Origin: a bacterium
Lineage (GTDB): Bacteria > Patescibacteriota > Patescibacteriia > Patescibacteriales > GWC2-42-12
Direction: 5' to 3'
Assembly: GCA_030649205.1 (NCBI GenBank)
Contig: JAUSGE010000042.1
Span: 1 to 33,349, forward strand
Length of the DNA stretch: 33,349 nucleotides
The notes beneath the pieces were generated by a model that saw only the letters and a list, made by a program, of their open reading frames with translations, was not told where the DNA came from and searched no databases. Below, in pieces: positions 15,149 through 31,723 of the stretch. How positions within the stretch are numbered: the stretch's first letter is position 1; every line of letters starts with the position of its first letter. The position numbers and the translations under genes were made by a program.

Positions 15149-16102
15149 TTATTGGAAATTAAAAATCTTTTTTATATCATCCAAATTCTCGGCTTTAACT
15201 AACTTCTTACGCAGTTCAGACGCGTTGTTTAGACCCGTAACATACCGGCACAACTGCTTTCGCATTTCTATAATCCCCTGCCTGCCTTTTAATTTTTCCG
15301 CCAGCTTGGCATGTTTTAACATAATTCCACGCCTAGACACCGAGTGTCCGCGGACACTCGGTGTCTTGCTTTTAACTTCTTCAAACACCCACGGCTTGCC
15401 CAGCGCGCCTTGCCCGATGCCAATTCCGTCCGCCCCGGTCTCAACCAACAGCTGATCAGCTGTTTTTTTGTCTTTAACTCCGCCATTAGCCAAAATCACG
15501 CCGGAAAAATATTTACGGGCTTGCTTGATTATTTTCGCGTCCACCTTGCCCGAATTACCCTGGGCCATACTGCGTCCATGAATCATAATCGCGGCCACGG
15601 GCAAATCTTTAATGGCTTTTAAAAAATCCACGGCTGTTGCCTCGCCGGCTCGCGAGCGGCATTTTAGGGAAACCGGCAAATCCGTACTAGCCAAGACCGC
15701 CTCCACGATCCGGCGCGCCAGTTTTAAATCATTCATCAGCGCCGCGCCCGCGCCCTGCTTAAGAACCTTTTTTACCGGACAGCCAAAATTAATGTCAATG
15801 CCTTGCGCCCTGATTTTCTTTTCCACAATTTTGGCCGCCGCGGCAAAATGTTCCGGCTTACTGCCGAATAATTGCACGACATAAGGCCGCTCTTTTTTAT
15901 CAAATCGCGCCAGCTCCAAAGTTTTTTTGGAATTATACGCTAAAGCCGCGGCGCTGATCATTTCGCTATAAACCACGTCCGCGCCAAAACTTTTGCAAAT
16001 TTGCCTAAACGCCGAATCAGCCACTCCAGCCATGGGCGCCAGGGCGTAAATTGGCTTTTTCAGCTTGAGCCAAAAATTTTTACTCGCTTGACAGCCATTC
16101 AT
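15149..16102 (-). CDS. dusB: tRNA-dihydrouridine synthase
   Basis: 317 residues, TIM-barrel FMN enzyme that reduces uridines in the tRNA D-loop. The start is followed by PIYALAPMAGVADSAFR, the family's N-terminal signature; SEMIS, YVVQLFGS and INFGCPVKKVLKQGAGAAL follow, with catalytic Cys108. Later motifs SLKCRSR, MIHGRS, ILANGGVKD and GADGIGIGQGALGKPW bind FMN and tRNA. DusB type is the best guess among subfamilies. Residues about 246-256 (TPSVRGHSVS) are encoded by a perfect 30-bp palindrome inserted in the variable linker before the C-terminal helical domain. Its 5' end contains the -35 box of the divergent diguanylate cyclase gene. Confidence 0.93.
   Translation of the reverse strand: MNGCQASKNFWLKLKKPIYALAPMAGVADSAFRQICKSFGADVVYSEMISAAALAYNSKKTLELARFDKKERPYVVQLFGSKPEHFAAAAKIVEKKIRAQGIDINFGCPVKKVLKQGAGAALMNDLKLARRIVEAVLASTDLPVSLKCRSRAGEATAVDFLKAIKDLPVAAIMIHGRSMAQGNSGKVDAKIIKQARKYFSGVILANGGVKDKKTADQLLVETGADGIGIGQGALGKPWVFEEVKSKTPSVRGHSVSRRGIMLKHAKLAEKLKGRQGIIEMRKQLCRYVTGLNNASELRKKLVKAENLDDIKKIFNFQ
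15336..15365. repeat. Palindromic element, family A, inside dusB
   Basis: Perfect 30-bp palindrome: GACACCGAGTGTCCG joined directly to its reverse complement. It matches the arms of the copies at 8736-8767 and 31675-31706 but has no unpaired centre. Read in frame. Confidence 0.88.
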
Positions 16103-19042: not shown

Positions 19043-19228
19043 AAGCCCGACTGAAAAGAATTGCTTTTATCGCGGCTCCTCGGTGCATGCCTCGGCGCCG
19101 AAACAACTGAACGGGGGTAAAATTGTAGCGGTTTTTTACAAAAAATTACTTTTTTTACCTTTTAATTTTTTGTAAAAAACGCACAAATTTTATTTAAGCA
19201 GGAAAAGCAATTCTTTTCAGTCGGGCTT
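19043..19228. other. Nested inverted-repeat element with conserved internal loop, copy 1
   Basis: Outer arms are a perfect 26-bp inverted repeat (19043-19068 and 19203-19228; arm starts AAGCCCGACTGAAAAG). Inside, a second long hairpin pairs 19119-19148 with 19163-19191. Its arms contain AAATTGTAGCGGTTTT on the left and AAAACGCACAAATTT on the right, so AGCG faces GC and one A is bulged. Exactly this asymmetric loop, including the bulged A, recurs in copy 2 (28376-28536), while all other arm bases differ. It lies 18 bp past the stop of the M23 gene. No ORF. Confidence 0.75.
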
Positions 19229-19246
19229 TTCTGCGCCACCACCACC

Positions 19247-22200
19247 TTACTTTAAAAATCCCATCGGGTCAACATCAATGCCGTTTTGATTGACTTCAAA
19301 ATGCAAATGCGCGCCGGTAGTGTTGGAGCCGGCGCCGATCGTGCCGGGTTTGCCGCCGGACAAAGCAATGACCTGGCCTGGCGTAACCGCGTCGCCCAAC
19401 TTCACTCGCAGAGCCGACAAATGTCCGTAAGTGGTCTTAATGCCCTGGCCATGATCAATCGTGATGTAATCATAGGCCGTAGTGTTATTATCAGCCAAAG
19501 CAACCACCACGCCGTCAGCCGCGGCTTTAACCGCCGTGCCTTGAGCAACGTCTATATCAATGGCATTATGCTCGCCAACTGAATCGCGGAACGGGTAAGC
19601 CGGATCATGAAAACCATAATTAACTTTACGCGAGCTAACCGGCCAACTTAAACTAACCTCGCCTGTACCGTTGCCATTATCTTCGCCTGTATCGGAATCA
19701 TCATCGCCGGCCGCGGCCGCGCTTACCGCGATGAAATCGCTGGGGTCGCCCTGAACTTTTACGTCCAACTTGGATTTTACGCCACGCGCCTTCAGCTCGC
19801 TTAAATAAATGTCAAAACTGTCTAAAGACACGCTGTCGCTGGCGCTTACTTTAATAATAAATTCCGCGGCCTGGCCGGTTTTTACCGTGAAGCCGCCCAG
19901 ACTGATCTTATTGGCGCCGGCCACGGGTTTGGAAATAGCGCCAACGCGGCTAGACTTGCCGGCTGCCGTTATTGACAAATTGCTAAAGCCCAAACTATTG
20001 GACAAGCCGTCGCTGGTAGTTACTATGTTCAAGTTATCCAGTCTAATGTCTTCGGCGCCGGTATTAGCCACGCTGAAACGGCCAATTTCATTATCTTTTT
20101 GTCCGGCCGCGAACGAACCGGCGCTAATGGCTTTAAGCTCGGCCGAGCTTTGGCCAAACGCGGCTGGCGCGCTGGCAGTGTTAACTCCGGCCACGGCGCT
20201 GGCCGCGCCCGAATTTCTGCTTTCGGCCAAAATGCTGGCCATGGCCAGCTGAACCTGGTCCGCTTTTAAATCAGCATCCGTGTCCGCCGCCAGGCTTAAT
20301 TCAGCCCGGGCGCCGGCCGTAAAATGATAAATAAAATTATCAAAAACATAATTAGCGCTGATTGGTTTTTCTATGACCGCGCCGACGCGGCCGCCATTAA
20401 TGGTCAGGCGCAAATTGCTAAAGCCGTTTTCATAAAGCGCGGCGCCTCCGGTTTCACCGCTTTTAGCCAAAATAATCTGGCTGATATCCACGTTATCGCC
20501 GGCCGCGGCCTCCAGAATCCAGCTGGCGATTTTAATATTTTTCTGGCCCTTGATTAAATTCTTATCCCAATCGCCATTGGCAAAAATAAACAGGCTGGAC
20601 TCGGTAGCGGTCAGGTGGTTTCCCTTAAGCCCGATGGCGTCTTCAACCGTAATGCCGCCATCATACTGATAGCTGATTTTATTTATCACCATCCGGTATT
20701 TGTCGCCGCTTAAAGTGCCGCCGGGCAGGCTGGAGACCAAGCTGAAATTTAAAATCTGCCTGGGGCCAAGGCCGAGGCCGTTAAATTTCAGCGCGCCGCC
20801 CGTCAGCTTATCGCCCGCGGCCGAAGAATAAATGTCTCCGGTATCATAGTTAACCAGATAAACCAAAGAGTTAAGCGCCGGCGCGTCCGCGGTTTTGTCC
20901 AGGCTGATATTTATATTCCGCAAATAAATTTTTTGATTGTTGTTTCTGATCTGAAAATTGCCGAAAATTTGGCCTCTTTGCCGGGACAGGGTGCGCTTGC
21001 CCGGCTTCAGTTCTTTATTAAAAATGCTTACCGGCTCGCGGCTAATGGTTAGGGTTTCATTGCTGTCGGTTTTGTTCAGCGCCAAGCCGTAGCCATAGCC
21101 ATCGCCCGAGGAATTAAAATCGCGGACATTCAGGTTCACGGTTTTGTTTTCTCCGCCCGCGATGTCGGCGAATAAAAGCAAAGTACCGCTTGAGCCATTA
21201 GCGATAATAAAAGCGTTATTCAAATTAAGCGTTACGGACTGATCGCCGGACAAGTCCGCGGTTTGCGCGATTAAATGATTATATTTGTCTTTAAGTTTAA
21301 AATTGGTAAGTTCGCCGGCTCCGGCGCTGCCTTGGTTAGTCAGAACAATATTGTCCAGCACCGCGTCTTCTTGGCCCGTGGTTTCGCTGATGATAAATTT
21401 TGCGATCAGCTTTTGGCTCTGGCCGATGGTTAAATTGCCGGCGTTCACGGCCTGCTCCGTTACTTTAACCTGCCCCAGCACCTCGCCGGTCAATAATTTG
21501 TACTGGCTGGCATTGACCGGAAAACTGCCGCCTATATCCGCGCTGGCTTTGATGTCGCCCGCGGCCGCCAGGCTAACCTGCAGCCAATGGTTTAAAAAAT
21601 CCGGATAGCTTTTTAAGTCCAGATAAACATAAATTTTTTCGGTTTCACCCGCCGGTATGATCAAGGGCGCGTCGCTAAAGTCAAACATAGCCCGCTTATT
21701 ATTCAATTCAGCCGGCTCGCCTAAATTTTTGCCGTCCGCGCCGGTCAAATAAACTTTATCCACGCCTTCAGATTTAAAAATGCCCTGGACTTTAAAAGTG
21801 ATTTTACTGACTTCCACGGTTTGGCCGCCAGCGATTAAATTAAACACGGCCGCCAGATTATGGCGCGAGTTAAGGGGGAAATAATCCTCGGTCACGCTGG
21901 CCTGATCAAATTCAACGGCCAGAGTGCCTGACGGCCCGCCGCCGGCCTTTACTACTGCTACAGTTTTTGGTTCAGCAATTTTAAAAGATAAAAAATCAGT
22001 TTGATTAACCGCGGCGATTTTACTTTTGCCCAAACCCAGCGCGGCCAGTTCAGCCGGATTTTTTACATAAGTCTTTTTATTGCCGCTCACATAATAAATT
22101 TTTTTGTCGCCGGCCAATTTTATTAATTTTACATCCGGCCATTTATTAAGTTGAGCCCGGCTGATAGTTTTTATGTCTGGCCATTTATTGCCATAAGACA

Positions 22201-22465
22201 AATAAGCGGCTGAAGAGATATAAGCCTTTTTGGCGCCCAGTTTATGGTCCAAATAATAGACCGTGGGACTGCCAGCAACTTTAACCTGCTTCACGTCAGG
22301 ACTAAGCCCATAAGCGGCCTGGGCTTCGGTAGCCTGCGACGCCCAAAAACCAATGGCCAAGAAGACTATGGCGGAAATCAATATTTTCGCCACTGTCGCG
22401 ATTATCAATAGCCTGAATTTTCGTGATTTACTGAATTTTTTCGCTAATTTTAAAATATTTTCCAT
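19247..22465 (-). CDS. Large exported protein with C-terminal M23 (LytM) peptidase domain
   Basis: 1072 residues. Basic N-terminus then a long hydrophobic segment (about 18-42) and ATEAQAAYG, a likely signal peptide cleavage region. Residues 45-165 contain short repeats of the YY-x-KK-Y type (KKAYISSAAYL, KKIYYVSGNKKTYVKNPAEL). The middle 180-930 is a series of beta-sandwich-like modules, threonine/alanine/glycine-rich, probably Ig-like. Residues 950-1072 are an M23 domain: EHNAIDID (His and Asp zinc ligands), YGHL and HLHFEVN (HxH); the metal ligands are intact. Predicted role: peptidoglycan endopeptidase or cross-bridge hydrolase carried on a long extracellular stalk. Same-strand neighbours are unrelated; the nested hairpin lies just after its stop. 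Confidence 0.88.
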   Translation of the reverse strand: MENILKLAKKFSKSRKFRLLIIATVAKILISAIVFLAIGFWASQATEAQAAYGLSPDVKQVKVAGSPTVYYLDHKLGAKKAYISSAAYLSYGNKWPDIKTISRAQLNKWPDVKLIKLAGDKKIYYVSGNKKTYVKNPAELAALGLGKSKIAAVNQTDFLSFKIAEPKTVAVVKAGGGPSGTLAVEFDQASVTEDYFPLNSRHNLAAVFNLIAGGQTVEVSKITFKVQGIFKSEGVDKVYLTGADGKNLGEPAELNNKRAMFDFSDAPLIIPAGETEKIYVYLDLKSYPDFLNHWLQVSLAAAGDIKASADIGGSFPVNASQYKLLTGEVLGQVKVTEQAVNAGNLTIGQSQKLIAKFIISETTGQEDAVLDNIVLTNQGSAGAGELTNFKLKDKYNHLIAQTADLSGDQSVTLNLNNAFIIANGSSGTLLLFADIAGGENKTVNLNVRDFNSSGDGYGYGLALNKTDSNETLTISREPVSIFNKELKPGKRTLSRQRGQIFGNFQIRNNNQKIYLRNINISLDKTADAPALNSLVYLVNYDTGDIYSSAAGDKLTGGALKFNGLGLGPRQILNFSLVSSLPGGTLSGDKYRMVINKISYQYDGGITVEDAIGLKGNHLTATESSLFIFANGDWDKNLIKGQKNIKIASWILEAAAGDNVDISQIILAKSGETGGAALYENGFSNLRLTINGGRVGAVIEKPISANYVFDNFIYHFTAGARAELSLAADTDADLKADQVQLAMASILAESRNSGAASAVAGVNTASAPAAFGQSSAELKAISAGSFAAGQKDNEIGRFSVANTGAEDIRLDNLNIVTTSDGLSNSLGFSNLSITAAGKSSRVGAISKPVAGANKISLGGFTVKTGQAAEFIIKVSASDSVSLDSFDIYLSELKARGVKSKLDVKVQGDPSDFIAVSAAAAGDDDSDTGEDNGNGTGEVSLSWPVSSRKVNYGFHDPAYPFRDSVGEHNAIDIDVAQGTAVKAAADGVVVALADNNTTAYDYITIDHGQGIKTTYGHLSALRVKLGDAVTPGQVIALSGGKPGTIGAGSNTTGAHLHFEVNQNGIDVDPMGFLK

Positions 22466-22570
22466 AACAAGCTAATAAGTAAATAAATAACATATTACTA
22501 TATCATATTTAGTTATTAATGTCAAGGAGCGTCAGCGTCAGCGTTCTGCCATTGCGAGCGACCGGCTTTT

Positions 22571-22600
22571 TGTCATTCCCGCGAAAGCGGGAATCCAGAG
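22571..22600. repeat. Family C element (single)
   Basis: TGTCATTCCCGCGAAAGCGG then GAATCCAGAG. A fragment of family D (CCATTGCGAGCGACCGGC) lies just upstream near 22550. Both sit in the 263-bp gap between divergent genes. Confidence 0.8.
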
Positions 22601-22728
22601 CTGGGCCGTAAATATGCTAAGGCAAAAAGCAACAATTAACAGTTAACGCAATGTATGTTATAGTTGTTTTAATTATTGCCGTTTAAGAAAATTGAACCTT
22701 TCAAAAACTTAAACTTGTGAGGTAAAAA

Positions 22729-23418
22729 ATGGAAAAGGAAGTTAAAGATAGAATTGCCAAAAATCCTTATCAGGAATTAATATCTCTTAGTGGAATTATG
22801 TTCACTTCTGACAGTAATATGCCGCCGCTTGAACAGTATCTTAAAAACATAAGCATAGACAACCTGGAGAAATTGACTTTCTTAGCCTATCAAATTATGG
22901 AATTTGACCGGCTGATTTTCCAGGGTGAACGCTCAAGGCCGGCCATCTATCTGCACCTTTCAAAAAAAGTGAACCGGCAGGAGTACATCTTTTTTTACGG
23001 TCCGACCAATGGCGGGCGGGGCAAGGAATTTTATCACGTAAAAATCCAAGAATTCATTGAATTATCCGCCCATGATGCGCCGTACGATTTGGCAGTCTAC
23101 GCCGCGCATCTGGTGCGGTTAAGAGTGCTGGCAAATTTCCCAACCACCAATTTGTTGTCGGTAAAAAAATTAGAGAAAATAAGAGCTGATAAAGGATGGA
23201 AAGGAAATAAGAATACCGAAAAACTTTTTAGACGCATAACGCCGGCCATCCGTAACGAGGCGGGAAATTGCGTTGATTTATCCGGTCAGGATTGCGTTCT
23301 GATTTCCCATTTGGCGGCTAGTTTTTGTACTAGCTCCACGCAAGACGCATTTAATAAAACGGACCGCGAACTATGGCTAAAACAAATTTTAACCTTAGAT
23401 GCGTCTAACTATTTATAG
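22729..23418 (+). CDS. Soluble protein of unknown function
   Basis: 229 residues, no recognised domain, no signal peptide or membrane segment. An SD-like GAGG lies eight bases before the ATG. It opens with charged helices (MEKEVKDRIAKNPYQELISLSG) and has a mixed middle (RSRPAIYLHLSKKVNRQEYIFFYGPTNGGRGKEFYHV) with basic and aromatic patches, and a C-terminal part containing GNCVDLSGQDCVLISHLAASFCTSS with three Cys. The pattern is not that of a known nuclease or methylase that I can name. A terminator follows and the next gene has its own promoter, so it is monocistronic. Confidence 0.65.
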   Translation: MEKEVKDRIAKNPYQELISLSGIMFTSDSNMPPLEQYLKNISIDNLEKLTFLAYQIMEFDRLIFQGERSRPAIYLHLSKKVNRQEYIFFYGPTNGGRGKEFYHVKIQEFIELSAHDAPYDLAVYAAHLVRLRVLANFPTTNLLSVKKLEKIRADKGWKGNKNTEKLFRRITPAIRNEAGNCVDLSGQDCVLISHLAASFCTSSTQDAFNKTDRELWLKQILTLDASNYL

Positions 23419-23441
23419 ATTTTAAATAGTTGGACATCATA

Positions 23442-23473
23442 TGACCCTTTGGCAACAGAGGGTCATTTTTTTT
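23442..23473 (+). terminator. Rho-independent terminator after the unknown gene
   Basis: TGACCCT, loop containing TTGGCAACAG, AGGGTCA (23442-23465), followed by eight or nine T residues. Begins 23 bp after the stop. Confidence 0.9.
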
Positions 23474-23535
23474 ATGAAAAAACCCTAAAACAATGCCTGT
23501 AAAATCGCGCTGTAAAATCGCTGTAAAAATCGCGC

Positions 23536-23564
23536 TTGACACGATTTTAGTAATATGCTAATAT
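23536..23564 (+). promoter_or_regulatory. Promoter upstream of the lipoprotein gene
   Basis: -35 TTGACA (23536-23541), 17-nt spacer, -10 TAATAT (23559-23564). It directs a long leader of about 208 nt holding the SD hairpin and two repeat elements before the ATG at 23779. Confidence 0.72.
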
Positions 23565-23610
23565 ACTCGGTTGAACTTTAAAAACCAAATATTATAAAAA
23601 ATTAGGCTTA

Positions 23611-23645
23611 TTGGGCTAAAAAGGAGGTGAATTTTCTTAGCCCAA
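23611..23645 (+). promoter_or_regulatory. Leader hairpin with a perfect SD sequence in its loop
   Basis: Stem TTGGGCTAA (23611-23619) with TTAGCCCAA (23637-23645), perfect 9 bp. The 17-nt loop contains AAGGAGGTGA (23621-23630), a ten-base complement of the usual 16S rRNA 3' end. No sizeable ORF starts after it: GTG gives nine codons, and an AUU six bases later could open 27 codons. The lipoprotein gene lies 130 bp further with its own SD. Confidence 0.6.
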
Positions 23646-23657
23646 GACAAATTTAAT

Positions 23658-23691
23658 CGTCATTCCGGCCGCCTGAGCCGGAATCCAGAAA
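23658..23691. repeat. Family C element
   Basis: CGTCATTCCGGCCGCCTGAG followed by CCGGAATCCAGAAA, with hairpin arms TTCCGGC/GCCGGAA. It sits in the leader of the lipoprotein gene. Confidence 0.8.
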
Positions 23692-23701
23692 GGCATCTAG
23701 C

Positions 23702-23748
23702 GTTGGCTCCATAGTGGTTCACCCTATGGAGCCGTAATGTTACCCAAC
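23702..23748. repeat. Family F element
   Basis: GGCTCCATAG (23705-23714) pairs with CTATGGAGCC (23724-23733); an outer GTTGG/CCAAC pair closes it. Same core and trailing GTAATG as at 13967-14044. It is immediately upstream of the SD of the lipoprotein gene. Confidence 0.78.
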
Positions 23749-23778
23749 AGTTTTTTTCTTTATAAAGGAGAAAAAAAA

Positions 23779-24579
23779 ATGAAAAATTTATTCAGATTTT
23801 TGGCGGTTGTAGTTTTTTTGGCAGTTTTTGCAGTTGGGTGCGGTTCCTCTGGTGAGACCGCAAAACTCCGTCGCCTTATCCAGCAGGACACCAAGGAGGC
23901 GATAAAACCGTGGGCGACCAGGGTCGCCACTCTGGAAGCCGCCCCCGCCCCCGCCACCCCCGACCTTCGGCCGCTGGAAAGTAGGTTGGCGGCCGTGGAA
24001 AATGGCCTGGCCAACCTAAATGAAGGCGTCACGGTCGCCGTACAAACGGCCGTAGGCGCCAAAGAGGTGGCGAATCAAGCCACCGACACGGCCAACGCCT
24101 CCAGGGAAACGGCAGCCGCGGGCTTGAAAAAAGCCACGGCCGCTGACAAAAAGGCGACCAAAGCCCTGGCCTTGATCACCCAAGGCGAGCTGACCCCCGC
24201 GGCCTCCACCCAGGCGAAACGGAAATATACAAAGGTAAGTGCCCGGGACCTCGCCGAAGGCAAAGGAGAGGCCGAGCTGAGCTTCAAGGCGGGGAGCTCG
24301 CTAATCGACGAGAGCCAAAAAAATGGCCTCATCGCCTTACTAAAGGCGAGAGGCCTAAAAATTATCTCTATAGTCGCCGTGGAGGACCGGCACCTTAAAG
24401 GGACCTCCACGGAAACCCAAGCGGCTGCCTTAAAAAGGCAGTTAGCAGAGGAAAGGGTCCAGTCCGTGAAAACTTCCTTCACTGACTGGTTGTCCGCATC
24501 GGCAACCGAGGAAGTAATCCCCCCGTACGGCGGGTACTCGGGGATTGTGACTCTTCTGCTGGGTAAGGATAAGCCTTAA
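23779..24579 (+). CDS. Lipoprotein with coiled-coil middle and OmpA-like C-terminal region
   Basis: 266 residues. ATG at 23779 is chosen for its SD (AAAGGAG) and because it opens a lipoprotein signal MKNLFRFLAVVVFLAVFAVG followed by Cys21, the lipidation site. The middle (30-150) is Ala-rich helical, with LESRLAAVENGLANLNEG and many Ala/Thr/Lys repeats, likely coiled coil. The C-terminal part (about 160-266: AELSFKAGSSLIDESQKNGLIALLKARGLKIISIVAVEDRH..., LKRQLAEERVQSVKTSF) resembles an OmpA peptidoglycan-binding fold, though the usual D and R positions are not clearly kept. Codons (GAG, CTC, ACC, AGG) differ visibly from the AAA/TTA-rich neighbours, hinting at recent transfer. Confidence 0.72.
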   Translation: MKNLFRFLAVVVFLAVFAVGCGSSGETAKLRRLIQQDTKEAIKPWATRVATLEAAPAPATPDLRPLESRLAAVENGLANLNEGVTVAVQTAVGAKEVANQATDTANASRETAAAGLKKATAADKKATKALALITQGELTPAASTQAKRKYTKVSARDLAEGKGEAELSFKAGSSLIDESQKNGLIALLKARGLKIISIVAVEDRHLKGTSTETQAAALKRQLAEERVQSVKTSFTDWLSASATEEVIPPYGGYSGIVTLLLGKDKP

Positions 24580-24590
24580 CCCAGCGCCCT

Positions 24591-24683
24591 GTGGCTTAGC
24601 CCCGAATAACGAGGCTAAGCCACGCCCCCACGTCAAATAGTTAGCAGGAAATAAAATCCTCTATTGACGTGGGGATTTTTTTT
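24591..24683 (+). terminator. Two-hairpin terminator after the lipoprotein gene
   Basis: First hairpin GTGGCTTAGCCCCG/CGAGGCTAAGCCAC (24591-24604, 24610-24623). Second, CCCCACGTCAA (24626-24636) with TTGACGTGGGG (24664-24674), extended by AATAG/CTATT with one bulged A, then ATTTTTTTT. The second is a canonical terminator; the role of the first is open. Confidence 0.85.
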
Positions 24684-24701
24684 ATGAAAAAATTTATTTA
24701 T

Positions 24702-25016
24702 TTATTTAATCCTGATCCTGCTCTTTTTAATTTCTAAAACCATGGGGTCGGCATCATCATTAAAATCTCGCGGCGTCAGGCCAATGGGCTCTATTCTCGG
24801 GTCAACGGCCACGCTCCATTTCCATAATAGCTCCTCATTTTTATTCCAATCTTTTTTTAATTTATCCGACAAAACCGCCACATCAATGTCGCTTTCTTCC
24901 TTAGGATTGCCTTTGACGTAAGAACCAAACAAATAAACAGCGAAAAATGGAAATTTTTCATCCCTTAATTTTTGCGCGTATTTGGCGACTATTTTTTGGG
25001 CTTCAACTCTTGACAT
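24702..25016 (-). CDS. Minimal nucleotidyltransferase (MNT-type) domain protein
   Basis: 104 residues. Motif GSYVKGNPKEESDIDVAVLS (31-50) is the GS-x-SDxD signature of pol-beta-superfamily nucleotidyltransferases; Gly31, Ser32, Asp43 and Asp45 are in place. An acidic position later (DPRIEPI) could be the third carboxylate. Family knowledge: small members often pair with HEPN toxins (MNT as antitoxin that adenylylates the toxin). No HEPN-like gene is next to it here, so it is either orphan or acts alone. The next gene upstream on the same strand ends 9.0 kb... away from nothing relevant; its own ATG follows the 969-residue gene by 57 bp. Confidence 0.78.
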   Translation of the reverse strand: MSRVEAQKIVAKYAQKLRDEKFPFFAVYLFGSYVKGNPKEESDIDVAVLSDKLKKDWNKNEELLWKWSVAVDPRIEPIGLTPRDFNDDADPMVLEIKKSRIRIK

Positions 25017-25073
25017 AAAATATGATAAAATTTTTTGATTTTATCCAACTTATCCTTCATTTTTAAGCTTCTA

Positions 25074-27983
25074 TCATTTTTTAAACCACCGAACACTCAC
25101 TCCCCCCGCACCTGTGTCATCTTCGCCTTCGATCGGTTCTTTATTATGATCTGTAAACCACCCAACACTCACCCCCCCCTCTCCCCTCATCATCTCCGCC
25201 GGCTTGGCCAGAACTTCTTTTAAGTCAGAAATGTCATCAAACTTCATGGGCGCGCCGTCCGGCCGCTCCAATAAAGCCTGGCCGTCAGCGGAAAATGTCA
25301 TCATATAATTTTTTTCATTAAAACCTTTGGTGATATAATTTATAACTAAGTCGCCATTAGTTCTTCGTCCGGCAATCAGTTTATCAAAATCAGTTAGCTG
25401 ATCTTTCAGATGAAGCCGATCAAGCAAATCGCCCAAATTACGATCATCATTAGGATTGTCCCAAACTTTAATCAGCCTGGCGCTTGCGCCCGGATCCTTA
25501 ATGCCCTTAACCGCGTTGTAATACTTGTCTATTTGCTGTAAATTAATGTCTTCAGGCGCACTGTCATAAATTTCAAACCGCGCCTTAATTTCCGAATATG
25601 AAATTCCGGTTTTAAAGCCCCGGTCTTTGATAAATTCCAGCTTGTTCGTGTCCGCTGGCAACAGACCGCCTGGCTTAAATATTTCTATGCCTAATTTTCT
25701 GGCCTGACTCAATTCTATTTTGCCTTCAGCGGTATTTTCAAACTCTTGCAATCGGCTAGCCATTAAACTTTGAGCCAGCTGCTCCATCTTCAAACTGGTT
25801 TTTTCCATCTTTTCCTTGCCAAACATCTCTTCTATTTGAATGCCGCTGTATTTTTCCACAACCGCGCCTTGATGCCATATCACAACTTCATCGGCCCGGT
25901 AATCATTATTTTTATCAAGAATCTCCAGCAATAATTTTTCATCGGAATATTTGTCCGCTAAACTATATGCTTTTGGACTCTCCGCTAAGTCAGCGGGGCC
26001 TTTCACGCTCCTGGAATCGGCAAGACCCACCGCTTTATGCCATAGTCTGTCGTTATTAGGCTCGCCTCCAATTTTTTTCTGTATCCAATCATCATTTACC
26101 ATTAAATTATATTCCGCCGATGGGTCCGTCTCCCTTGAGCCAAGCTGTTCAACTAATCCAGCCGTTTTATCTTCCACCTCAACGCCGGATTTATCGGCCA
26201 CAGGCAGTAATTCTTTCTGCCCGGCTTCAGCCGGAGTTATTTTTGATTCAATCTTTGGCTTAACGCTTTCAGCATCAGCAACTTTCTTGCCCGAATGAAC
26301 ATACTCGTATTTGTTTATACTTTCTCCTCTTTTAACTAATTCAAAATTTCCGCCAACGTTTTTGTAATATTCCTTAACCGCTAACTCGCCATTTTCATCT
26401 CTTTCCAAAATATAAGCGACCTGGTCCGCCGGTCTAACCCTGATTTCTTTTCCTCCTGCCGAATCCACATAGCCCATTTTTTCTGCCAGCAAATGAGCCT
26501 GCCGCTGGGCGAATTTATTTATCTCGCGATGGTTATTCGCGTCGCCTTTAAATTTCAGCTCATCTTTATATTCGTTAAAATGAGCCTTGATTTGCTGATA
26601 CAGCGACTGCTCAATCCCCTTGCCTTTTTTTACCAGGCCGATTTCAATATCCTTTCGCTCAAGTTCCGCTGGACGTCCGACGTCCACTTGGACGTCGGAC
26701 GTCTTTTCAACATGCTGACCATTGGCGGGCTGTGCCACGGTCGTAGCGCCTACTGGTTTCACAACATTCGCGTCAGCTTTGATTACCGATCCGGGCGCTG
26801 GTTCCGCCGCATAATTCGTTTCACCGACATTTTCGTTTAAATTGTCTGCCCAGGCATTGCCAGCGCTAAAAAAATTTCCCACCGCGCCCATGCCTTTAAC
26901 CGCCGCTCCGCCGCCGGCTTTGGCCAGATGGCCGACTCGTCCGGGCAAAGCTTTGTATGATTCATAAGTTTTTTCAAGATTACCCGCGAAATTTTTTCCC
27001 ATGTCGGACAATGAAACTTTGCCTTCCAGCGTGTTTAATAAATTTTCCATGGCCTGGGCATTAAGACCCGGGTTATCTAATCCGGAATAGCCCAGGCCCA
27101 GATATCTCATAACTTTGCCGCCGGCCTTGATAAAATCCAGCCCTTTTTGCAAACCGGTTTTTTTGCCGCTCATGTCCTTAAATCTTAACTCGTCCCAGGT
27201 CTCGGTAAAACTGCCAGCCACCACATCTTTTAAAAAATTAACCTTTTCCTCTTGGCCTGACTTTTTTGACTTAACCCTGGCATCTTTGCTCAATCTGGAA
27301 TATCGCTCCACTCCATCCATAATGCCATAACTTACCCCCCTTAAGGCCATAGCGCCGCTAGCAAATAAAAAAGTATTCAAAGACTCGCGCGCCGCCTGAA
27401 TACCGGTTATTTTTGTCGTGGTATAGTCGTCCAAAATTTCAGTAATTTTTTCTTTTCTGGCCTGTTGGTCATTTTTTTCATTCACGCGGTTTTCCTTAAG
27501 CAATTTAGCCAGCATGTTTCTCTGCTCCGAGCCTTTTTGTCCGCCTTCTTTAGTGAGCTTAAGCCGGCCATTTAAATCGGCAATGGCCTGCCTAACGTCA
27601 GTATCTTGTTCAATATCAGATTCCGGCTCCGCGCCCAGCTGCCGCTCCTCTCGCATCTGCCAATTTTTGGCCAGTAGATCTTCCACCGAGCCTTCCAGGC
27701 CTTTGCCCTTGCCCATAATGCCGCGCACCACGAATCTTTCCCTGAAATATTCCGGCACATCATAAAAACTTTTAACGCCGGCAATTGACGCCGCGGTGCC
27801 GATAATGGTTTTGCCTGCCTGCTTTTGCAATTCCGGACTATCCTTAAATATAATGCCGGCTTGTTTAGCCGCCACGCCCCACTCTTTAATCTTGCCGTAA
27901 ATTCTGCCGGCGAATCCGGGCTCATCCGGTTGGCGCTCATCCGGCCAGCTTATGGCTTCATTTTTTAATTCAGCCTTATTCAT
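25074..27983 (-). CDS. Very large conserved protein of unknown function
   Basis: 969 residues, unrecognised as a family. No signal peptide. Long charged helical stretches at the N-terminus (1-330), a Gly/Ala-rich hydrophobic part near 350-380 (AGGGAAVKGMGAVGNFFSAG) that could touch a membrane, and a C-terminal region with Asp-rich, Asn-rich folded domains. The end carries two near copies of GGVSV-x-WF (GWF, then RWF), a small tandem duplication. Two palindromic elements are read in frame (26215-26239 and 26672-26703). It overlaps its 109-residue partner gene by 8 bp, so translation is coupled. Such giant unnamed proteins are frequent in this bacterial group; a cell-surface or secretion link is only a guess. 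Confidence 0.7.
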   Translation of the reverse strand: MNKAELKNEAISWPDERQPDEPGFAGRIYGKIKEWGVAAKQAGIIFKDSPELQKQAGKTIIGTAASIAGVKSFYDVPEYFRERFVVRGIMGKGKGLEGSVEDLLAKNWQMREERQLGAEPESDIEQDTDVRQAIADLNGRLKLTKEGGQKGSEQRNMLAKLLKENRVNEKNDQQARKEKITEILDDYTTTKITGIQAARESLNTFLFASGAMALRGVSYGIMDGVERYSRLSKDARVKSKKSGQEEKVNFLKDVVAGSFTETWDELRFKDMSGKKTGLQKGLDFIKAGGKVMRYLGLGYSGLDNPGLNAQAMENLLNTLEGKVSLSDMGKNFAGNLEKTYESYKALPGRVGHLAKAGGGAAVKGMGAVGNFFSAGNAWADNLNENVGETNYAAEPAPGSVIKADANVVKPVGATTVAQPANGQHVEKTSDVQVDVGRPAELERKDIEIGLVKKGKGIEQSLYQQIKAHFNEYKDELKFKGDANNHREINKFAQRQAHLLAEKMGYVDSAGGKEIRVRPADQVAYILERDENGELAVKEYYKNVGGNFELVKRGESINKYEYVHSGKKVADAESVKPKIESKITPAEAGQKELLPVADKSGVEVEDKTAGLVEQLGSRETDPSAEYNLMVNDDWIQKKIGGEPNNDRLWHKAVGLADSRSVKGPADLAESPKAYSLADKYSDEKLLLEILDKNNDYRADEVVIWHQGAVVEKYSGIQIEEMFGKEKMEKTSLKMEQLAQSLMASRLQEFENTAEGKIELSQARKLGIEIFKPGGLLPADTNKLEFIKDRGFKTGISYSEIKARFEIYDSAPEDINLQQIDKYYNAVKGIKDPGASARLIKVWDNPNDDRNLGDLLDRLHLKDQLTDFDKLIAGRRTNGDLVINYITKGFNEKNYMMTFSADGQALLERPDGAPMKFDDISDLKEVLAKPAEMMRGEGGVSVGWFTDHNKEPIEGEDDTGAGGVSVRWFKK
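26215..26239. repeat. Family B element inside the 969-residue gene
   Basis: Begins TTCTGCCCGGCT and ends AGCCGGAGTTA, identical to the units at 13871-13936. It is translated on the minus strand as about ITPAEAGQK. Confidence 0.85.
26672..26703. repeat. Palindromic element, family A variant, inside the 969-residue gene
   Basis: Arms GACGTCCGACGTCC (26672-26685) and GGACGTCGGACGTC (26690-26703), 4-nt centre. Same 14-4-14 layout and same inner symmetry (GACGT-CCG-ACGTC) as family A, with different paired bases. Encodes about TSDVQVDVGRP in frame. Confidence 0.8.
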
Positions 27984-28305
27984 ATATTTGCGCTAACTGC
28001 TTAAGCTGATCCAATAATTTATTTTTTTCGCTCTGGCGTTTTTTTTCTAAATTTTTTACAGCCTCGGCCAGCTCGCGCGTATATTTTTCATCAATCCCCT
28101 TTGTCTGCTCGTCCAAGTACATGGCTTCTAAAATATTTAACAGCTTAGCGATTTGCTCCAGCGTCATCTCGGGAATTAAAACCGCCCAGGCCTCTTTAAT
28201 GTCTTCGGGCATGGTAGAATTAGCCAAAAGCAGAGCCAATTTTTTGGCTTGAATTTTTAAATTTTCCAATAACATTTGTGCTTGGTCGCTTTGATTGTCG
28301 GGCAT
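27976..28305 (-). CDS. Small helical coiled-coil protein coupled to the 969-residue gene
   Basis: 109 residues, unrecognised. All-helical: MPDNQSDQAQMLLENLKIQ, a middle part with MTLEQIAKLLNILEAMYLDEQ, and a C-terminal coiled coil (YTRELAEAVKNLEKKRQSEKNKLLDQLKQLAQ). No membrane segment. Its 3' end overlaps the start of the 969-residue gene by 8 bp, so the two are translationally coupled and likely act together. Upstream is a 425-bp region of repeats. Confidence 0.7.
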   Translation of the reverse strand: MPDNQSDQAQMLLENLKIQAKKLALLLANSTMPEDIKEAWAVLIPEMTLEQIAKLLNILEAMYLDEQTKGIDEKYTRELAEAVKNLEKKRQSEKNKLLDQLKQLAQIYE

Positions 28306-28328
28306 ATGTCAACAAGTTTAGCATTCCC

Positions 28329-28358
28329 AGCTCCATACCCCTGCGGGACTATGGAGCC
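28329..28358. repeat. Family F element (diverged)
   Basis: AGCTCCATA and TATGGAGCC arms around CCCCTGCGGGAC, followed by AAGCGGCATTA. It is the reverse-orientation counterpart of the sites at 13967-14044 and 23702-23748. Confidence 0.7.
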
Positions 28359-28375
28359 AAGCGGCATTACAAGGT

Positions 28376-28536
28376 TTGGACTTGGGAAAATTATTTTCAG
28401 AGCGCATACGAAATTGTAGCAGTTTTCCGAAAACTGTCATTCCGTGCGAGCGACAGCGAGTTAGGAATCGCATTTCAGTTTTCGGAAAACGCACAAATTT
28501 CGTCTTAAGCGATGGAAATAATTTTCCCAAGTCCAA
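28376..28536. other. Nested inverted-repeat element with conserved internal loop, copy 2
   Basis: Outer arms are a perfect 21-bp inverted repeat (28376-28396 and 28516-28536; arm starts TTGGACTTGGGAAAA), 23 with G-U pairs. The inner hairpin carries AAATTGTAGCAGTTTT (28411-28426) and AAAACGCACAAATTT (28486-28500): the same asymmetric AGC(N)G/GC loop and bulged A as copy 1 (19043-19228), with unrelated outer arms. A family C/D-like sequence starting GTCATTCC occupies the apex (about 28436-28470). Conserved TTAAGC precedes the right outer arm in both copies. Confidence 0.75.
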
Positions 28537-28625: not shown

Positions 28626-28716
28626 AGTGATTTTAAATGTATTTATATTTGTTGGAAATTTTATGTCAAATCCCTAAATTTTTCTCTAGCGAGCGTTAAA
28701 TACATTTAAAATCACT
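28626..28716. repeat. 20-bp inverted repeat around an AT-rich centre
   Basis: Arms 28626-28645 (starts AGTGATTTTAAATG) and 28697-28716 are perfect reverse complements, 51 nt apart. The middle has no long pairing. It lies just after the stop at 28731 on the minus strand and is not a copy of the nested hairpins. Confidence 0.7.
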
Positions 28717-28730
28717 CCTCATTACAAAAA

Positions 28731-29336
28731 TCAGCTCAACCCCACCTCGTCAATCACCACCAGTTTCCGGCCGTCCAGGATGCCGTAGAGAAAAATGTCC
28801 GTGATGTCGCGGCGGTATTTGAATTCATGCGGCTCAAAGACCGTAAAATTAATTTCTTTGCCCAATTCGGCCTCCAGCTCTTTAATTAATTTCAGCAGTT
28901 TAACTTTATTGATTTTACCAACCAAGAGGATGTCAATCAGAGTATTCGGGTTATTGACGAAAATGCCGGTTAAAACCAGCAGTTTGATATTACCGATTGA
29001 CCGCAGTTTGCTGACAAAATCTTTTTCATATAAAATCTGCGCTTTGATAATCAGCGCCTTAATCTCGTCAAACAAAATAAAATTCTGATTGGCGCGAAAA
29101 TATTTTTTTTCCTGACCGGCCGCCGGCTCTTTCTTTTCAGCTTGAGCCTCTTCGCTTTTAAAATCCGACGTCAAAATGCCGAAGCTTTCCAAATTTTCCA
29201 GCTCCCGCCGGACCGAATTCAATTGCAGCTTCAGCTCGCGCGCTAATTGCCGGATATAGAACTTGTCGGCCGGATGAATTAAAAATAATTTCAAAATTTT
29301 AACCCGAGCTTTTGAGCCGAATAGCTTTTCTAGCAT
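28731..29336 (-). CDS. Winged-helix transcriptional regulator with C-terminal nucleotidyltransferase-like domain
   Basis: 201 residues from ATG at 29336 (MLEKLFGSKARVKILKLFL), the usual start of this group. Residues 1-70 form a winged helix: FYIRQLARELKLQLNSVRRELENLESFGIL. Residues 110-200 (KLLVLTGIFVNNPNTLIDILLVGKINKVKL..., LGKEINFTVFEPHEFKYRR) resemble a degenerate nucleotidyltransferase domain. The usual GS motif and catalytic Asp pair are reduced (T-G-I-F and L-I-D-I-L), so enzymatic activity is unlikely. The gene ends with TGA. It is divergent from the 753-residue gene with overlapping promoters, so it may regulate that gene or itself. Confidence 0.78.
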   Translation of the reverse strand: MLEKLFGSKARVKILKLFLIHPADKFYIRQLARELKLQLNSVRRELENLESFGILTSDFKSEEAQAEKKEPAAGQEKKYFRANQNFILFDEIKALIIKAQILYEKDFVSKLRSIGNIKLLVLTGIFVNNPNTLIDILLVGKINKVKLLKLIKELEAELGKEINFTVFEPHEFKYRRDITDIFLYGILDGRKLVVIDEVGLS

Positions 29337-31672: not shown

Positions 31673-31674
31673 AA

Positions 31675-31706
31675 GACACTCGGTGTCCGCGGGGACACCG
31701 AGTGTC
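31675..31706 (-). terminator. Family A palindrome acting as terminator for rplJ-rplL
   Basis: Arms GACACTCGGTGTCC and GGACACCGAGTGTC around GCGG. On the minus strand the hairpin is followed by TTTTATTTT, as in a terminator, 18 bp past the rplL stop. On the plus strand no T-run follows. Also the third full copy of family A (8736-8767, 15336-15365). Confidence 0.78.
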
Positions 31707-31723
31707 TTCAGATCAGCTGATGT

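Follow-up and report, generated by a model that had tools for sequence, protein, structure and literature searches.

Dispersed Nested Hairpins with Self-Matching Arms in Patescibacteriota: A Candidate Family of Small Mobile Elements

Introduction

Two long nested hairpins, at positions 19043–19228 and 28376–28536, stand out in a stretch of 33,349 nucleotides from a patescibacterial genome (contig JAUSGE010000042.1 of assembly GCA_030649205.1; the whole stretch is hereafter called the window), and they raise the question of what kind of element keeps its interior from copy to copy while its two ends change together. Repeat families usually have common ends and a variable inside; here the reverse is seen, the inside being common and the ends being private to the locus and matching themselves. 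An earlier note, made from the letters of the window, regarded the two structures as the best candidate for an undescribed element, and expected a conserved loop with free arms to be recognised by a protein or to act as RNA, rather than to belong to ordinary transposon ends. The analysis described here places both structures in a dispersed and mobile repeat family, and on balance they are probably copies of a small non-autonomous element, resembling miniature inverted-repeat transposable elements (MITEs), whose whole length folds into one hairpin.

Anatomy of the Two Hairpins

The outer inverted repeats are as perfect as was first described, with 26 bp in copy 1 (L001; 100% complementary) and 21 perfect bp within a 24-nt arm in copy 2, and the inner arms are likewise perfect in both copies. 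The core shared by the inner hairpins, TTGTAGCNGTTTT ... AAAACGCACAAA, was found without mismatch at two sites only in a pattern search of the window, and these are copy 1 and copy 2. Both copies fold much more strongly than dinucleotide shuffles of themselves (z = -9.7 and -11.1, respectively). Their parts are as follows.

19043–19068, + strand, left outer arm of copy 1, 26 bp, with its perfect partner at 19203–19228
about 19072–19117, + strand, 46-nt insert of copy 1 in the first internal loop, also in copy C20:6330 (L004), by direct reading
19119–19135, + strand, left core of copy 1, AAAATTGTAGCGGTTTT
19131–19148, + strand, left arm of the inner hairpin of copy 1, 18 bp, with its partner at 19163–19180
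19163–19180, + strand, right arm of the inner hairpin of copy 1
19176–19199, + strand, right core of copy 1, AAAACGCACAAATTTTATTTAAGC
19203–19228, + strand, right outer arm of copy 1; the stop codon of the gene at 19247–22465 (- strand) lies 18 nt past the arm
28376–28399, + strand, left outer arm of copy 2, 24 nt with one mismatch (96% paired), of which 21 bp are perfect
28400–28426, + strand, left core of copy 2, GAGCGCATACGAAATTGTAGCAGTTTT
28422–28436, + strand, left arm of the inner hairpin of copy 2, 15 bp, with its partner at 28476–28490
28437–28475, + strand, apex insert of copy 2 (TCATTCCGTGCGAGCGACAGCGAGTTAGGAATCGCATTT), also in copy C13:9138 (L037)
28476–28490, + strand, right arm of the inner hairpin of copy 2
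28486–28510, + strand, right core of copy 2, AAAACGCACAAATTTCGTCTTAAGC
28513–28536, + strand, right outer arm of copy 2
28377–28535, + strand, match of covariance model R1 to copy 2, 81 bits, E = 2e-17

In copy 1, the 46-nt insert replaces most of the conserved GCGCATAC stretch. The insert noticed earlier at the apex of copy 2 is real, and occurs a second time in L037.

A Dispersed Repeat Family

Further copies, which the earlier note had proposed to seek with a covariance model, were sought by pattern searches together with such a model, and 14 family copies were found in the home genome (G000; 1.2 Mb in 50 contigs), on contigs C1 (two), C5, C13, C17, C20, C32 (three), C35, C37 (two, those of the window) and C38 (two). 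Of the 111 genomes from this order, 17 contain family matches, as do 9 of the 13 genomes of the home family, f1, so that the distribution is patchy, with up to 29 model matches per genome (29 in G002 and 28 in G005). The copies are short (100–190 bp), dispersed, many per genome, and without coding capacity. As far as searched, this is an undescribed and unnamed repeat family, in keeping with what was first suspected; nothing on such repeats in this bacterial group was found in the open-access literature, and no match to the core was found in viral contigs.

The loop that had been described as conserved is the asymmetric core of the family, GCGCATAYRAAATTGTAGC on the left and GCNCAAATTTYRTCTAAGC on the right, and its conservation, together with free but self-complementary arms, is seen in many copies and in many genomes. 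Both window copies do have the extra A and the AGC loop, but these are normal features of this core and not peculiar to the pair. Likewise, the description of the arms as unrelated holds for the outer 12–14 bp or so of the 20–27 bp outer arm, which are private to each copy, but not for the inner nucleotides (about 10), which stay near AATTRTTTTT. Next comes the first internal loop, reading GAGCGCATA or ATCGCGCATA on the left and TCTAAGC plus GA or AGG on the right, and inward of it a helix, RYGAAATT/AATTTCRY, whose two variable positions co-vary (CG, TG, CA or TA on the left, with a matching right side). The second loop opposes GTAGC to GCNC with an unpaired A, and is followed by the inner hairpin, the length of which is very variable. 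Most copies have a GTAG tag at the foot of the palindrome, and others have GTAA, GTCG or GTTG. Two arm classes can be told apart, A (...GGCTTGGGGAAATTATTTTTatc) and B (...GCCGGACAAAGATATTGGTTTTga), and in the home family the arms have only a weak consensus, with copy-specific sequence.

Other repeats also land preferentially in the first internal loop. Different small inserts of palindromic form (GCCTGCCTGCCGGCAGGCAGG, CCACCCGCTTTCGCGAGTGCTAAAGG and the 46-nt insert) have repeatedly entered it at nearly the same position, in the left loop of L048, L060, L090 and L110, in the right loop of L088, L093, L108 and L111, and also in copy 1 and L004.

Paired Change in the Outer Arms

For most copies, the pairing of the outer arms is no selection effect, because they were found by the left-core sequence motif alone and not by pairing; the 20 copies added by the covariance model lean to paired arms, and the scores that this model gives to its own members are bound to be high. 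Over 98 copies of the home family, the paired fraction is 0.85–1.00 at positions 1–21 from the inner edge and reaches background by positions 26–28, and in the 92 well-placed copies 2085 of 2166 arm pairs (96%) are Watson-Crick. Covariation of the arms, which had been proposed as a check, is strong: among 16 distinct aligned copies, 23 of 42 pairs have changed on both sides, and there are 124 double-change cells, versus 34 in shuffles and 13–21 in slid controls. The same is seen at single loci. The arms of the orthologous copies L045 and L054 differ at 5 positions and those of L067 and L091 at 6, and all 11 differences are two-sided, with one further one-sided change. Both pairs were counted as orthologues on their unusual insides and common flanks, and only these two were used as firm orthologues, because intergenic gaps are small and, in many of the pairs that occupy one site in different genera, the two copies may have inserted independently.

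Other copies differ in the symmetry or the orientation of their interior. In L148, the arms are mismatch-free over 38 nt, including a first internal loop that has been made symmetric, and in L114 the right second loop has been converted to the left form. Compared with L163, L178 and L179, the inside of L149 matches directly (0.87–0.92), while its flanks match only in reverse; in the pairs L046/L082 and L051/L068, the orientation of the inside is flipped at the same intergenic site.

Mobility, Ends and Target Duplications

The family is mobile, and in genome G015 it moves as an IS66-type MITE, as follows from 8-bp duplications, common ends and an IS66 transposase element with the corresponding ends. 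Exact 8-bp direct duplications lie outside the ends in 11 of 27 copies in G015, compared with 0.44 expected from shuffled pairs. This genome has undergone a young burst, with 128 end matches that imply about 64 element copies, and the common ends (GTAACTGCTCACTATATCTGCA...) match the GTAACTGCTCAC ends that enclose a 484-aa IS66-family transposase (PF03050/NF033517) in G045 (L222, C13). A core-less, internally deleted relative of 437 bp (L200; G015:C7:5352-5788) has the same ends and the duplication AGTTAGAG. The arms in G015 are thus typical IS66-type ends with 8-bp target duplications, and the view that such structures are unlike ordinary transposon ends is not supported.

The search for a mobilising enzyme in the window's own lineage was negative. 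No IS66 transposase was found in the window's genome, which also has no GTAACTGCTCAC ends, and in related genomes no candidate passed the cut-off. Among 12 loci with unmatched or distant ends there was no full-length autonomous copy, these loci being short, decayed or enlarged by small inserts. Nor was a linked protein gene, for which the earlier note had proposed to look, found across genomes: copy number is followed by none of four enzyme types (Y1, IS66 and IS256-type transposases and reverse transcriptase). A Y1 transposase of the kind associated with repetitive extragenic palindromic (REP) sequences, termed RAYT (REP-associated tyrosine transposase), was rejected as the mobiliser, as G002 and G005 have no Y1 gene despite their 29 and 28 matches; no confident family copy was found in the stretches fetched around the listed Y1 genes. 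Mobility of a reverse transcriptase or retron-like kind was also rejected, as reverse transcriptase is absent from the copy-rich genomes G003, G005 and G017.

A single transposase gene was found within the copies of the home genome (C1:35869-36567; NF048019, E = 1e-74). It separates the halves of copy C1:35515, from which one might suppose that the hairpins are MITEs of this IS256-type (Zn variant) insertion sequence. That is improbable in the extreme, as the IS256-type element (L070; G000:C1:35541-36595), on direct reading, occupies the hairpin apex with ends of its own, GAGTTAAGAGAAAATTAGGGTGCTTA / GGTTTAAGGGAAAATTAGGGTGCTTA, and has its own 8-bp duplication, ATTTTTTT, within the apex, and the transposase is absent from the other hairpin-carrying genomes of the family. 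Its ends are homologous to those of Flavobacteriales relatives (GGGTTAATGGACAAA). The gene is a hitch-hiker in the hairpin copy, and its role as the mobiliser is refuted. The reading frame of L070 begins with a run of seven A (A7), by which its likely start is displaced, and is therefore broken or dependent on slippage.

Arm-to-Arm Copying as the Favoured Explanation

Template switching between the arms of inverted repeats leads to arm homogenisation and spacer inversion (PMC8604942). As both are present in the family, and together are the documented signature of the process, we infer that template switching is to be preferred to compensatory selection. The explanation that we favour, with somewhat better than even confidence, is that of a MITE-like hairpin transposon, the arms of which are kept matched by template switching between them. 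Such an element would have outer arms that vary, a conserved but asymmetric core that holds two internal loops, and an apex that is again variable. During replication, a single strand would fold and the DNA polymerase would switch template from one arm to the other, copying a new arm mutation onto its partner and now and then flipping the spacer, so that the sequence of the arms could drift while their complementarity was kept. The core may stay asymmetric between left and right because some enzyme in this family of genomes requires it for mobility, or because correction is rarer in short mismatched loops. Mutual copying of the arms in this manner gives the same pattern of a conserved loop with free arms from which recognition by a protein or a role as RNA had been expected, and the pattern does not by itself imply either.

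Several observations weigh against this explanation. The flipped pairs L046/L082 and L051/L068 have insides of different types and may be independent insertions, and the arms in G015 are less homogenised than others (18 shared versus 51 unshared variants). Mismatches of the G-T type outnumber those of the A-C type (38 versus 20, p = 0.025), a modest effect that pure template switching does not predict, and the conserved internal loops mostly escape homogenisation, for which an extra assumption is needed. Copies of the home family have no target duplication above chance (1 exact 8-mer in 92, with 0.4 expected), and the genomes of this family yielded no autonomous partner. Finally, the orientation of the copies relative to genes is biased, 74 versus 22, a real effect for which template switching does not account; strand-biased insertion or a cost of the opposite orientation could account for it.

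Are the Arms Part of the Element?

Arms that are private to each locus could also be target sequence, if the core inserted into the loop of pre-existing perfect hairpins. This would accommodate the finding that copies in the same genome with 97% identical insides can differ greatly in their outer arms, as well as the position of the G015 core within IS66-type ends. Where the insides of same-genome copies are at least 92% identical, the outer arms are 60% identical on average, versus 48% in other same-genome pairs, and in the closest pairs (insides 96–97% identical) they are 36–45% identical without shift. In G056, however, identity between copies is 82% over the outermost 7 nt and 40% over the 13 nt that come next, after which the conserved core begins, and pairing extends over the whole; since the variable paired stretch is here flanked by conserved sequences of the element, the arms were not taken up from the target. 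Moreover, no empty class-B hairpin (CCGGACAA...TTGTCCGG) was found in 13 genomes, ordinary hairpins in these genomes have A/T outside and G/C inside, which is the opposite of the family arms, and the arms have a near-constant length of 20–27 and a weak common consensus. In view of the missing empty sites, the reversed polarity and the anatomy in G056, capture of target hairpins was rejected as the source of the arms, and we regard it as very unlikely. In the comparison of empty sites between species, flanks within one genus are only about 77–80% identical and intergenic DNA cannot be aligned.

RNA or Folded Single Strand

The copies lie in small intergenic gaps. A neighbouring gene was recognised, by a simple rule based on open reading frames, in 96 cases; in 74 of these the right-hand gene is directed towards the element, and its stop codon is often within about 20 nt of it. 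This position just downstream of genes, along with the strong covariation and the strong predicted folding, is what a structured RNA or a regulatory element at the 3' end of transcripts, such as a terminator or stabiliser, would produce, if pairing in the transcript were selected and restored by compensatory mutation. Against this, no match above the gathering threshold of Rfam 15 was found at either locus (matches below it being chance matches), one tRNA being the only hit in the window, and the stem is not followed by a T-run. The strand that is transcribed from the upstream gene has more A-C than G-U mismatches (26 versus 13 in -|- contexts), the reverse of the prediction, and the inside stands in both orientations relative to the flanks; stems of 22–25 bp that are hypervariable yet perfect would be unusual for a selected RNA, and the family is absent from most relatives. 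A role of RNA read with the upstream gene is weakly disfavoured, and the RNA explanation as a whole, one of the two readings offered at first, seems to us rather unlikely.

The hairpins might, alternatively, be single-strand DNA transposon ends or recombination sites, recognised by their folded shape and conserved loops, the stem being free in sequence and its pairing being required for mobility, as in attC sites and the ends of IS200/IS605 and REP elements. Conserved asymmetric loops and bulges with free stems would fit, as would the GTAG at the foot of the inner hairpin, which is found in GTAG-tagged REPs (PMC3733652), the lack of target duplication in f1, and the strong orientation bias relative to genes. 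Yet the Y1 results given above do not agree with it, no partner recombinase was found, old and apparently immobile copies are still paired (L045/L054), and mobility in G015 is accompanied by 8-bp duplications of the DDE type, so that we hold this alternative to be doubtful. A wider form of the idea, which we likewise put forward only tentatively as a minor possibility, is a class of mobile DNA in which a recombinase or transposase reads the shape of the folded single strand, through the conserved asymmetric loops and not the stem sequence, and in which the element's own hypervariable arms would be renewed, or made more diverse, in the course of mobilisation. The same architecture is shown by at least one other, unrelated core in these genomes.

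Comparison with Known Systems

Like bacterial MITEs and IS66-type derivatives, the copies are short, non-coding, dispersed and intergenic, with inverted-repeat ends, and those in G015 have the GTAACTGCTCAC ends and 8-bp duplications in common with the IS66 transposase element. Common terminal repeats, as in MITEs, are present in G015, and a conserved base in G056, whereas f1 has only its weak consensus. Unlike MITEs, the arms in most genomes differ from copy to copy while pairing almost perfectly, an asymmetric conserved core lies inside them, and the window's family is without a target duplication or an autonomous partner among those found. Integron attC sites act as a folded single strand with extrahelical bases and a free stem sequence, and are located after stop codons, in all of which they resemble the hairpins; unlike attC, no cassette arrays were seen, and the conserved parts of the family are internal while the base of the stem is variable.

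REP and GTAG-tagged repeats with RAYT (PMC3733652, PMC2817692) are extragenic, lie mostly downstream of genes, have GTAG beside a hairpin, and show alternative complementary residues in the stem, as the present family does, but the latter is much longer (100–190 bp), nested, has variable outer arms of 20–27 bp, and shows no association with a Y1 gene. Quasipalindromes under replication template switching (PMC8604942, PMC7202029) share arm homogenisation and spacer inversion with it, but have been described for single chance inverted repeats, whereas here a dispersed family shows the signature at nearly every locus over long divergence. If arms are copied as we suggest, the family would document, in nature, how arms copy one another in bacterial genomes, at many loci and over evolutionary time. 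It also serves as a warning that covariation, which is usually taken to prove that an RNA is functional, can be strong without a sign of RNA selection on the transcribed strand. Should the conserved loops be read by an enzyme, the family would be a new kind of mobile element recognised by its shape, in a group of which few members have been cultured.

Other Hairpins in the Window and in Related Genomes

The second, unrelated hairpin family, with the core GAAGCGAGGACTGTTTGAG...GCGAGTTCCGCAGCGA, is of the same design, with copy-private arms of 26–30 bp and an AT-rich inner arm (L053:2805, L055 about 2369, L089 about 2774 on the - strand, L097 about 1640 on the - strand, and L115:937). In G003, L190:331-515 has 56-bp perfect arms around a 73-nt spacer and lies near another family copy. 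Within the window, another 20-bp perfect inverted repeat with a 51-nt loop (28626–28716) is located between copy 2 and the gene at 28731 (- strand); it gives a weak model match (17.5 bits, E = 0.04), and may be a decayed relative or a member of another family. A perfect hairpin, AGACACTCGGTGTCC / GGACACCGAGTGTCT, recurs at 31673–31708, 15335–15366 and L038:274, once immediately after a stop codon, and looks like a repeated palindrome of the terminator type.

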